Assembly (NCBI GenBank): GCA_028865335.1
Contig: JAGWKK010000003.1
Coordinates: 1-37,321 of the forward strand
DNA length: 37,321 nt
From: Patescibacteria group bacterium
GTDB lineage: Bacteria > Patescibacteriota > Minisyncoccia > UBA6257 > 02-FULL-45-10c
Direction of reading: 5' to 3'
Shown here: in pieces, positions 13,945 through 32,287 of the stretch
Numbering within the stretch: position 1 is the first letter of the stretch
How the letters are laid out: every line of letters starts with the position of its first letter
Made by a program: the position numbers and the translations under genes
The notes under the pieces: model-generated
What the model was told of the DNA's origin: nothing
Databases searched by the model: none
What the model saw: the letters and a program-made list of their open reading frames with translations, nothing else

Positions 13945-14030
13945 TGCTCTACTCCCATTTCCTGAGCTCCCTATCGGAGCATACAGGGCTTGATTTTTCT
14001 TTTCAAGTGATATATGCTATATTCTATCTT

Positions 14031-14177
14031 ATGTCGGGTAGTAGAACTGCGATGAGTATATAACCCCTCTTCGCCGACGACTATCTTGCATAGGCCGTTT
14101 ACAATTCATTCACGTTCCGACTATAATTAAGACGTGTTATATACTGCGAAGAGTATCGCAGTTTCACTACCCGATAT
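14031..14177. repeat. Inverted-repeat element A
   Basis: ATGTCGGGTAGTAGAACTGCGAT (14031-14053) pairs with 14155-14177 (reverse complement ATATCGGGTAGTGAAACTGCGAT). Confidence 0.85.
14098..14127 (+). promoter_or_regulatory. Sigma70-type promoter inside element A, toward rpmB
   Basis: TTTACA, 18-nt spacer, TATAAT. Confidence 0.6.
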
Positions 14178-14364
14178 GAAACAGTGCGCATTCTGTGGCA
14201 AGGGACACTTTATGGGAGGTACCCGTAAACTGCTCCGCGGCCACTACAACCCGACGAATTGGTCACGAAAGCAGGCAAACCTGCAGTGGTTTTCCGAACC
14301 CGGAAAGCCCGGCAGAGTGAAGGCGTGCGTGAAGTGCATCAAGCTCCGCAAAAAGAAAGCATAA
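14176..14364 (+). CDS. rpmB: 50S ribosomal protein bL28
   Basis: CAFCGKGHFMGGTRK...PNxWSRKQANLQ...VKACVKCIKLRKKKA, bL28-like zinc-binding form. Confidence 0.75.
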   Translation: MKQCAFCGKGHFMGGTRKLLRGHYNPTNWSRKQANLQWFSEPGKPGRVKACVKCIKLRKKKA

Positions 14365-26344: not shown

Positions 26345-27634
26345 CTATACCAACGGAATATTGGACGGCGGTTCGCCCTTGCGCGTTTCCAAGCGGCGCA
26401 GCAGCGGAGACTCCACCGTGACCAACGGGAAGTGGAAGATCGTCGCGAGTTCTTCGGTATTCAAAATTGACGCGCTCGGCGGGAACCAGCGCAGCCGGTA
26501 CCGGTCGTAGATCGCGCGCTTGCGGACATGGATCTTCTGCTTGCGGAACCAGCTCTTCGTCGTCAGCTTTTTGGACGTCACCAGCGTCATCGTATCCCCC
26601 AGCGGACGGAAGCTGTTCATGTCCTGCGTGTTGAACTGCTTGAACGCTCCGTTGACCGCGGCGACGTTTGCCGGCGTAAAACTTTCCGCATGATCGATAT
26701 AGACGAACCGGACCGCGGACTCGAAGCCCAGCTTGGAAATCTTGCGTTCCACCGCTTCCAGAATATTCTTTTCGCCCGGCGAAAGATTGACCATCTTGAG
26801 GCCCTCTTCCTTTTTCGGAGCACCGCCCCATGCCGGATATTGGCGCGGCGCGGAAACCAGGTTCAGCACAAACTCCCGCAGGCCGCTGACCAGCGCCTCC
26901 AGTCCTTTTTTCTCGGCGACCTTCTTGCGCTGCATGATCTTGTCGCGGAGCGCTTCGCCCTCGGCCTTCCACTTATCGGAAACCGGCTTGATCAGGTACT
27001 GCAGCCAGATCGCCTCGCCTTCTTTCAGGCGGGACATGACTTCGGTGATCGCCGCGATCGGATCCAGGCGCTGTTCATCCACGTTCGCCTCGAAGAATTC
27101 ATAGGTCTTGATCGGATACGCGTTCGGCTTCGCCAGCACGAAATCGCTCCCCCAGAGATCATAGGATTGGTTCGGCAGGACTTCGGGCATCAGATCCGTA
27201 TAATCCTCGGCTTCGGAGATTTCGGCGTCCGGATATTCGGAATAGATCGCCGATTCGATGAGATTGCGGTGCGGCTTCGCGCAGCGGACGAAAAAATGCA
27301 CTCCGCCGCCGTAACCGATCAGCTCGAAGGTGAACCACAGCAGATCCGATCCCTTGAAATACTTGTCTTCAAAGCCGGGGTCGGACGCGTACACCGCGTG
27401 CAGCGTGGAAAAGATATTCTCCATCGCTTTCGGCGTCTTCAGGATGTTCCGCGGGATCTTGATTTCGAGCAGAACCCACGGAATGCTCAGCTTCCACAGG
27501 CGGTTTTTCCCCCATACCCAAAAATCCCTCCAAATGAAAAAGAGGGCTGCGGGAACGACGATCCACCAGCTCACACTGAACACCCGCGCAATCGATTGCG
27601 CAATGCCCAACGCGACGCTATTCCAGTCCACCAT
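26345..27634 (-). CDS. Membrane-anchored partner of the DUF87-type ATPase
   Basis: N-terminal TM segment; directly upstream of the ATPase gene. Confidence 0.7.
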   Translation of the reverse strand: MVDWNSVALGIAQSIARVFSVSWWIVVPAALFFIWRDFWVWGKNRLWKLSIPWVLLEIKIPRNILKTPKAMENIFSTLHAVYASDPGFEDKYFKGSDLLWFTFELIGYGGGVHFFVRCAKPHRNLIESAIYSEYPDAEISEAEDYTDLMPEVLPNQSYDLWGSDFVLAKPNAYPIKTYEFFEANVDEQRLDPIAAITEVMSRLKEGEAIWLQYLIKPVSDKWKAEGEALRDKIMQRKKVAEKKGLEALVSGLREFVLNLVSAPRQYPAWGGAPKKEEGLKMVNLSPGEKNILEAVERKISKLGFESAVRFVYIDHAESFTPANVAAVNGAFKQFNTQDMNSFRPLGDTMTLVTSKKLTTKSWFRKQKIHVRKRAIYDRYRLRWFPPSASILNTEELATIFHFPLVTVESPLLRRLETRKGEPPSNIPLV

Positions 27635-27771
27635 ATCAGGTAGTAGAAATTCGAGCGCTACGCGTTTCGAATTTGGCGATTAATAGTAGTCATCATGTTC
27701 AGGACATATGTCAGCCGAAGCAACGTTAATGAATACCGGCGGAAACCACTCGAATTTTCACTACCTGACAT
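27633..27771. repeat. Inverted-repeat element B
   Basis: ATATCAGGTAGTAGAAATTCGAG (27633-27655) pairs with 27749-27771 (reverse complement ATGTCAGGTAGTGAAAATTCGAG). Confidence 0.85.
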
Positions 27772-27839
27772 ATATGTTTATTCTAGAACAATTAGTTAAA
27801 AGAACAAAAAAGGACCTACCCGAAAACGCACCCGAGAAA

Positions 27840-31488: not shown

Positions 31489-32127
31489 TTATTCAACCGT
31501 CACGCTCCGGATAACCGCATCCACCGTCGGATGGTCGTTCTGGTTGCGCGGCAAGTTCACGATCTGATCGACGACATCCATGCCGCTCAGCACGTGTCCG
31601 AAGATCGTATAATTGTGCGGCAGCGCCTGATCAGCCTGCATGATGAAGAACTGGCTGCCGTTCGTGTTCGGACCGGCGTTCGCCATCGCGAGCGTCCCGC
31701 GGGTATAGCCCTGCTGATACGACGGCGTCTGCGGATTCAGTTCATCGGCGAATGTATAGCCGGGCCCGCCCATGCCGTCATTGGACCAATCGTTGTCTTT
31801 GCTGTTCGGATCGCCGCCCTGGATCATGAATCCCGGAATCACCCGATGGAACTTGGTACCGTCATAGAATCCTTTCTGCGTCAGCGTCAGGAAATTCTGC
31901 ACCGTCTTCGGCGCATCCTTCGGATAGAGTTCCAACTGAATATTACCGAAGCTGGTCTTCATCAGTATCACCGGATCGCCCGCAATCTGCGGCGTCGCGG
32001 TCGCCACAACTTCCTGCGCCGCCACCGTCGGTGTCGCAGCCGCATGACGCGTCAGATAATACGCTCCGGCGAAAAAGCCGACCAATACCACCGCCACCAC
32101 CAGCCCCCGAATAATGTCTGTAGTCAT
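31489..32127 (-). CDS. Membrane-anchored cyclophilin-type peptidyl-prolyl isomerase
   Basis: FHRVIPGFMIQGGDP, MANAGPNTNGSQFFI; start chosen at MTTDIIRG. Confidence 0.93.
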   Translation of the reverse strand: MTTDIIRGLVVAVVLVGFFAGAYYLTRHAAATPTVAAQEVVATATPQIAGDPVILMKTSFGNIQLELYPKDAPKTVQNFLTLTQKGFYDGTKFHRVIPGFMIQGGDPNSKDNDWSNDGMGGPGYTFADELNPQTPSYQQGYTRGTLAMANAGPNTNGSQFFIMQADQALPHNYTIFGHVLSGMDVVDQIVNLPRNQNDHPTVDAVIRSVTVE

Positions 32128-32276
32128 ACCACGTAGTGAATCTGCGGGGTGTATCCGCAGCATTTAATGTTTATATTTAAATTTCTTAAACTTCTTCGTT
32201 ATAGCCAAACTTGGCATCGCCTGATAGTTTCACTGCGGATACATTAAATGCCAACCGCAGATCTACTACATGGCAT
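32126..32276. repeat. Inverted-repeat element C
   Basis: ATACCACGTAGTGAATCTGCGG (32126-32147) pairs with 32255-32276 (reverse complement ATGCCATGTAGTAGATCTGCGG). Confidence 0.85.
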
Positions 32277-32287
32277 ATAAAAATAAA

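Follow-up and report, generated by a model that had tools for sequence, protein, structure and literature searches.

An Inverted Repeat That Ends at the rpmB Start Codon

The window analysed here is a stretch of 37,321 nucleotides from a Patescibacteria genome (contig JAGWKK010000003.1), and the question it raises is why one arm of an inverted repeat should end at the start codon of rpmB. The distal arm, TATGTCGGGTAGTAGAACTGCGAT (14030–14053), and the gene-proximal arm, ATCGCAGTTTCACTACCCGATATG (14155–14178), differ solely at the outer G/A and at an AG/GA pair, and, as the original prediction stated, the proximal arm runs into the rpmB ATG without a Shine-Dalgarno sequence. The other parts described there were found as well. 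The distal ATG at 14031 opens the frame MSGSRTAMSI* 7 nt after a TATATT box, TTTACA (14098–14103) and TATAAT (14122–14127) lie between the arms at a spacing of 18 nt, and the hairpin ACTGCGA-agagta-TCGCAGT is present. Two features had been missed: the exact limits of the element, which are a duplicated TATG, and further complementarity between two pairs of inner segments (Table 1). RNA folding of the element gives −56.6 kcal/mol (z = −5.0), and 0 of 200 shuffled sequences fold equally well. Rfam covariance models run against the region and 19 related loci returned nothing relevant, only tRNAs. The host gene product matches TIGR00009 at E 0.006 and Pfam L28 at E 0.13, both below the cut-off, and an ortholog scores 1e-4; from these scores, the bL28 identity of the 62-aa protein is plausible but weak.

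Table 1. Positions of the element at rpmB, its parts, and the two further copies in the window.
Feature	Position	Strand	Remarks
TATATT, -10 box of the leaderless promoter already in place (extended form TATGCTATATT)	14018–14023	+	7 nt 5' of the distal ATG
Left TATG of the duplicated target, holding the start codon the gene had originally	14030–14033	+	Empty site in a same-genus genome
Mobile element copy A, 141 bp, non-autonomous	14034–14174	+	12 copies by pattern or homology; model R1 matches 14030–14178
Left arm	14034–14053	+	Helix a 14034–14042, conserved mismatches 14043–14044, helix b 14046–14053
Right arm	14155–14174	+	Helix b' 14155–14162, mismatches 14164–14165, helix a' 14166–14174
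Leaderless 10-codon uORF MSGSRTAMSI*	14031–14063	+	Counterpart of the long-copy nuclease N-terminus MPGSRNSTAI...
Inner segment c	14056–14064	+	Pairs with c' 14136–14144 and crosses d/d'; compensatory changes
Inner segment d	14067–14075	+	Pairs with d' 14145–14153; compensatory changes
Inner segments c' (14136–14144) and d' (14145–14153)	14136–14153	+	Partners of c and d
Right TATG copy; ATG 14176–14178 is the present gene start	14175–14178	+	Sequence
Host gene, bL28-like ribosomal protein (rpmB), 62 aa	14176–14364	+	Weak family scores
Second copy, same subfamily, TATG on both sides	32125–32277	-	Before a 212-aa gene starting at 32127; site empty in a same-genus genome
Third element, ATTCGA arms, 133 bp between CATA/CATA	27632–27772	-	Other subfamily

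Dispersed Copies and Empty Sites

The element is not confined to rpmB. At least 14 copies are present in this genome, 3 of them in the window; 12 are of the window type and 2 belong to related subfamilies. A homology search of this genome already gave partial copies. The distal-arm pattern retrieved 11 copies, the reversed control pattern retrieved 0, and the copy at hisS completes the set of 12. With small variations, these copies start as TATG-CC.GGTAGTAGA.CTGCGA and end as TCGCAG..CACTACC.GG-TATG; the flanks are exceptional in one copy with CATG on the left and in one (C43) with TTTG on both sides. All 12 except C43 are placed at the ATG of an open frame, and the genes behind them are mutually unrelated and often essential, including, as judged by sequence, ftsZ, hisS, a cysteine desulfurase (iscS) and a D-Ala-D-Ala ligase (ddl). 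Orientation toward the gene is constant within the window subfamily. A fixed orientation as a universal rule was rejected, as other subfamilies show the reverse. The third element of the window occupies the space separating two divergent genes: the minus-strand gene (27634) takes its start codon from the TATG end of the element, and the plus-strand gene begins at 27774, just past the other flank. An additional element of a related subfamily is located on another contig (C14:11744). The hisS copy (L004 1504–1674) contains a palindrome, CCTGCCTGCCGGCAGGCAGG, inside the distal arm that disrupts the uORF frame.

Comparison with a second genome of the same genus (G001) reveals filled and empty states of the same sites. 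At rpmB, ftsZ, hisS, the cysteine desulfurase gene and others, G001 has the ATG right behind the -10 box and no element, and such empty leaderless orthologous sites number about 10; at rpmB itself, TATACT lies shortly 5' of the ATG. The site of the nuclease-bearing copy of our genome (see below) is also empty in G001. G001 is in turn filled at hrcA and at a clpB-like gene, both behind CIRCE-type operators, and hrcA is empty in the genome studied here. In one Portnoybacteria genome, an identical 165-bp copy (flanks included) occurs at two loci. No such element is found upstream of rpmB in the same-genus genome or in other genomes of the family, which is not the distribution of an autoregulatory leader of a ribosomal protein. 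By these genome comparisons, the inverted repeat is a copy of a dispersed mobile element and no regulator of rpmB. The start-sequestering attenuator proposed originally is not supported as the purpose of the element, given that rpmB of the same genus lacks it and that copies precede unrelated genes; an effect on rpmB expression is possible. As a separate observation, genes with CIRCE-like operators (hrcA, clpB-like; L064, L076, L229, L318) seem to be leaderless and are hit repeatedly by elements.

A scan of 84,980 species genomes located the end pattern in 58 stretches. Every record among the 58 whose title names a phylum or group is from Patescibacteria, the rest being titled only 'bacterium', and the groups include Portnoy-, Gottesman-, Moran-, Doudna-, Uhr-, Terry-, Nealson-, Levy- and Liptonbacteria, among others. 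The end pattern was not found in the viral contigs scanned.

Insertion at Leaderless Start Codons with a 4-bp Duplication

We collected 86 distinct insertions across Patescibacteria, many of them located with a pattern containing TATG, and scored an ATG as a start when its frame had 60 codons or more, or 20 or more if it reached the end of the available sequence. The 4-bp flanks are identical in 66 of 86 insertions, where 0.7% would be expected at random positions of the same spacing, and are unequal in about a quarter. The element ends at a gene ATG in 69/86, and among the oriented cases the ATG is at +1 of the element end in 68/70. For comparison, such a frame follows 30% of all TATG occurrences in these loci, most of them within genes. 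Because many insertions came from the TATG-containing pattern, the search was also run with a TATG-free pattern, which detected the arms in 46 of 384 genomes of the class; the reversed control pattern gave almost no matches. In this set, identical 4-mer flanks are seen in 11/17 elements, including CATG, CAAG, TCCA and TCAT, and 13/17 are at a start. Crude gene calling in G001 classes ~46% of non-coding TATG sites as possible starts, and the start bias is therefore above baseline, yet purifying selection against other sites could contribute to it.

In the 70 oriented insertions, TAnnnT is enriched 6–9 nt 5' of the distal ATG (44 versus ~14.5 in shuffles). With a -10 box at this distance, the target is therefore a leaderless start codon. 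Within the limits of sequence comparison, these data demonstrate that the elements insert where a leaderless gene has its start codon, at TATG or, rarely, a different 4-mer, and duplicate the 4 bp. The start codon is duplicated, and the gene therefore keeps one. The leaderless uORF of the original prediction is supported accordingly, since its ATG is at leaderless spacing from the -10 box, was the original start of the host gene, and starts the nuclease in the long copies described below.

Conserved Fold of the Ends

Almost all of 61 distinct arm pairs have positions 1–9 and 12–20 paired, and several pair types occur at positions 3, 13, 14, 16, 19 and 20. Positions 10–11 are A.C and G.T mismatches in 61/61. 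These compensatory changes, together with the invariant mismatches, indicate that what is conserved is an intrastrand fold of DNA or RNA. In the 11-copy set of this genome, 95% of the cells pair, two-sided changes occur at 12 pairs, and the covariation score is 0.313, compared with 0.144 for shuffled and 0.03–0.10 for slid alignments. The original prediction was to stand or fall with recurrence in related genomes and covariation, and both are present. In the window subfamily, the inner helices c/c' and d/d' cross and show covariation, and a Gottesmanbacteria subfamily has the same helix order in other letters. The inner helices were rejected as a universal feature: a swap test places them chiefly in the window subfamily and in Gottesmanbacteria, with a few other elements besides. 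Gottesmanbacteria copies, among them L181, L203 and L208, also have, around position 60, an internal copy resembling the right end (CTGCCTGGAATG), and AAAGGA is conserved in them ~55 nt upstream of the gene.

Long Copies Encode a GIY-YIG Nuclease

Long relatives of 306–350 bp have the same ends and a single ORF, which encodes a GIY-YIG nuclease of 90–100 aa. At two Portnoybacteria loci with such ends, the units are 319 and 330 bp (flanks included), and the distal ATG opens MPGSRNSTAI-MFYYVYILES..., a GIY-YIG protein of 97–101 aa that matches PF01541 (E 2e-16), retains the conserved Y, Y, R and E residues, and is near UPF0213 BH0048 (1zg2; E 8e-6). The frame opens at the distal ATG, and thus the left arm encodes the N-terminus of the nuclease, to which MSGSRTAMSI* at rpmB corresponds. 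L231 and L232 also have an open frame beginning at the distal ATG (MPGATTS...). In these four long copies, the nuclease frame begins at the former ATG of the host gene, reads through the left arm, and stops inside or just before the right arm. The nuclease stop in long copies is 8 to 21 nt 5' of the host ATG, a spacing that suits coupled re-initiation. Our genome has a nuclease-bearing copy of its own on C28, with an intact frame that begins at an internal ATG and is not fused to the left ATG, and we found no nuclease-bearing copy in this genome with the CTGCGA arms of the window subfamily. Further nuclease-bearing copies are present in G006, G009, G011 and more distant genera. No ORFs other than GIY-YIG were found between these arms at the loci examined.

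Within the same bacterial family, four other inverted-repeat families, CCCACACATAAC, TCCCGTTAGAG, CCCTCACCCTT and CCCCCTCACC, likewise enclose GIY-YIG genes and terminate at a start codon. In G009, of another genus, a short copy of one such family (TCCCGTTAGAGGC..GCCTCTAACGGG; L035) is positioned on the start codon of rpmB and has ATGAAA at either side, so rpmB has taken up insertions of two families, independently, at the same codon. A second repeat family, CCCACACATAACTTACAC..GTGTAAGTTATGTGTGGG, encloses GIY-YIG genes with the ATG of the next gene immediately after, at L245 (C55:36063–36314 of this genome), L233, L236 and L246. Upstream of rpmB in G002 and G004 (L030, L038), inverted repeats ended by CCCACACATAAC/CCCACTCATAAC lie just 5' of a TTGAC -35 box and not at the start codon. 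These genomes are rich in GIY-YIG genes, and for many of them no flanking repeats are detectable.

Proposed Element and Its Relation to Known Systems

We consider it likely that the inverted repeat at rpmB belongs, as a non-autonomous and MITE-like copy, to a mobile element that targets start codons and is associated with GIY-YIG genes, with the nuclease as the presumed mobiliser. With less assurance, we favor the view that these elements form a separate class in Patescibacteria, which would be defined by hairpin ends, a lone single-domain GIY-YIG nuclease, insertion at and duplication of leaderless start codons, expression of the nuclease through the host promoter and old ATG, essential genes that stay functional, and several unrelated end families on the same plan, whether evolved or diverged. 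In such a mechanism, the nuclease would recognize the hairpin ends in folded form, either a cruciform or a single strand, and would nick or cut there and at the target, and repair of a staggered cut would yield the 4-bp duplication. The old promoter and ATG would then drive the nuclease, or a relic of 10–20 codons, while the duplication would spare the host, whose gene could be restarted at the new ATG by coupled re-initiation or by hairpin processing. Copies of 120–157 bp, such as that at rpmB, may be mobilised in trans.

The rpmB element resembles a MITE in its terminal inverted repeats, target duplication, 141-bp length without a transposase ORF, and 12–14 dispersed copies. It departs from one in that no autonomous partner has a known transposase; the partner with the same end type encodes a GIY-YIG nuclease, so the element is called MITE-like and is placed outside the known transposon families. 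The Correia elements of Neisseria (CREE) and other bacterial MITEs are 100–155 bp long, with terminal inverted repeats, a short target duplication, positions near gene starts, and a long hairpin in the mRNA, all of which are shared here. However, the target here is the start codon itself, within a 4-bp TATG (TA for CREE), and the two fixed end mismatches, the compensatory changes, and the long relatives with a GIY-YIG nuclease set these elements apart from CREE and MITEs. GIY-YIG homing endonuclease genes and UPF0213 share the catalytic domain and the nuclease gene as a selfish element, but here there is no intron or intein, inverted repeats and a target duplication form the bounds, and many different sites are occupied. 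In the open-access literature, we found no earlier description of such elements, the nearest being a remark in a study of rRNA-gene insertions in CPR bacteria, which reports GIY-YIG proteins in non-intron insertions and also ORF-less insertions under 200 bp (PMC11270868). Those insertions are from the same bacteria and are alike in both respects, but they are in rRNA genes, and inverted repeats or start codons are not mentioned.

Should the nuclease turn out to be the mobiliser, these elements would together form a categorically new class, and the proposal, if true, would account for the many GIY-YIG nucleases in minimal CPR genomes. To our knowledge, it would also be the first mobile element that targets and duplicates start codons, a parasite entering a ~90% coding genome through the leaderless ATG, where insertion need not break the gene. 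The observations support widespread leaderless translation in these uncultured bacteria, and they caution that what is annotated there as a start codon or a small GIY-YIG ORF is often mobile DNA.

Alternative Explanations

The strong fold, the compensatory changes in arms and inner helices, the uORF at leaderless spacing, and a position nearly always before a start codon could also be those of an RNA regulatory leader, retained since its leaderless uORF and hairpin control downstream translation as a start-sequestering attenuator. However, the lineage-specific presence with clean empty sites, the unrelated downstream genes, the 4-bp duplications that include non-ATG sites, the copies away from starts, and the nuclease-bearing relatives make such a leader improbable. 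We would give somewhat more room, though still as an unlikely outcome, to an RNA-level element whose structured transcript self-cleaves, splices or is processed, restoring a leaderless message from the downstream ATG. This would be compatible with mobility. Insertions before essential genes require expression for survival, the crossing inner helices covary in two unrelated subfamilies, and G.U and A.C wobble pairs are kept, but the inner helices are missing from other subfamilies, and Rfam gives no match. A switch in which the promoter between the inverted repeats inverts was also part of the original prediction. It has the promoter-like TTTACA-18-TATAAT in its favor, but the -35 (TTTACA) is not conserved among copies, orientation is uniform in the subfamily, and there is no recombinase at the site; we regard it as scarcely credible.

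Among mobile alternatives, terminal inverted repeats and a fixed 4-bp duplication are what transposase chemistry typically leaves, and repeat-free GIY-YIG genes are common. The rpmB repeat might then be mobilised passively, as a MITE, by a DDE or tyrosine-type transposase unrelated to it, with GIY-YIG genes as frequent passengers. We think this doubtful, considering that GIY-YIG ORFs are the only ones between these arms at the loci examined, that such genes are in five unrelated repeat families all ending at start codons, and that the nuclease is fused in frame to the left arm. The REP/BIME-like pair offered originally came nearest of the three readings in it, in that the element is a dispersed, mobile GTAG palindrome; it is no REP, having a 4-bp duplication and, in G001, three copies without a Y1 match. 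Indeed, REP and REPIN–RAYT systems (e.g. PMC3116915, PMC3733652) likewise comprise dispersed GTAG palindromes and a single small nuclease as the presumed mobiliser. They differ in that the elements here have a 4-bp duplication, GIY-YIG in place of Y1/HUH, a start-codon target, 120–157 bp units, and paired ends, and IS200/IS605 elements make no target duplication. Movement of a REP/BIME or REPIN by a Y1 (RAYT, IS200/IS605-like) transposase would fit the GTAG motif, the paired hairpins, and the one Y1 gene of this genome, but G001 is 96% complete and 12/17 related genomes have no Y1 match, which leaves this route very improbable. The sole local Y1 gene (L058 213–452, on C14), cut by the contig edge, is bordered by palindromes of a different kind, AAGGACTTGCGAGGTCCTTA, and probably belongs to a separate REP system.
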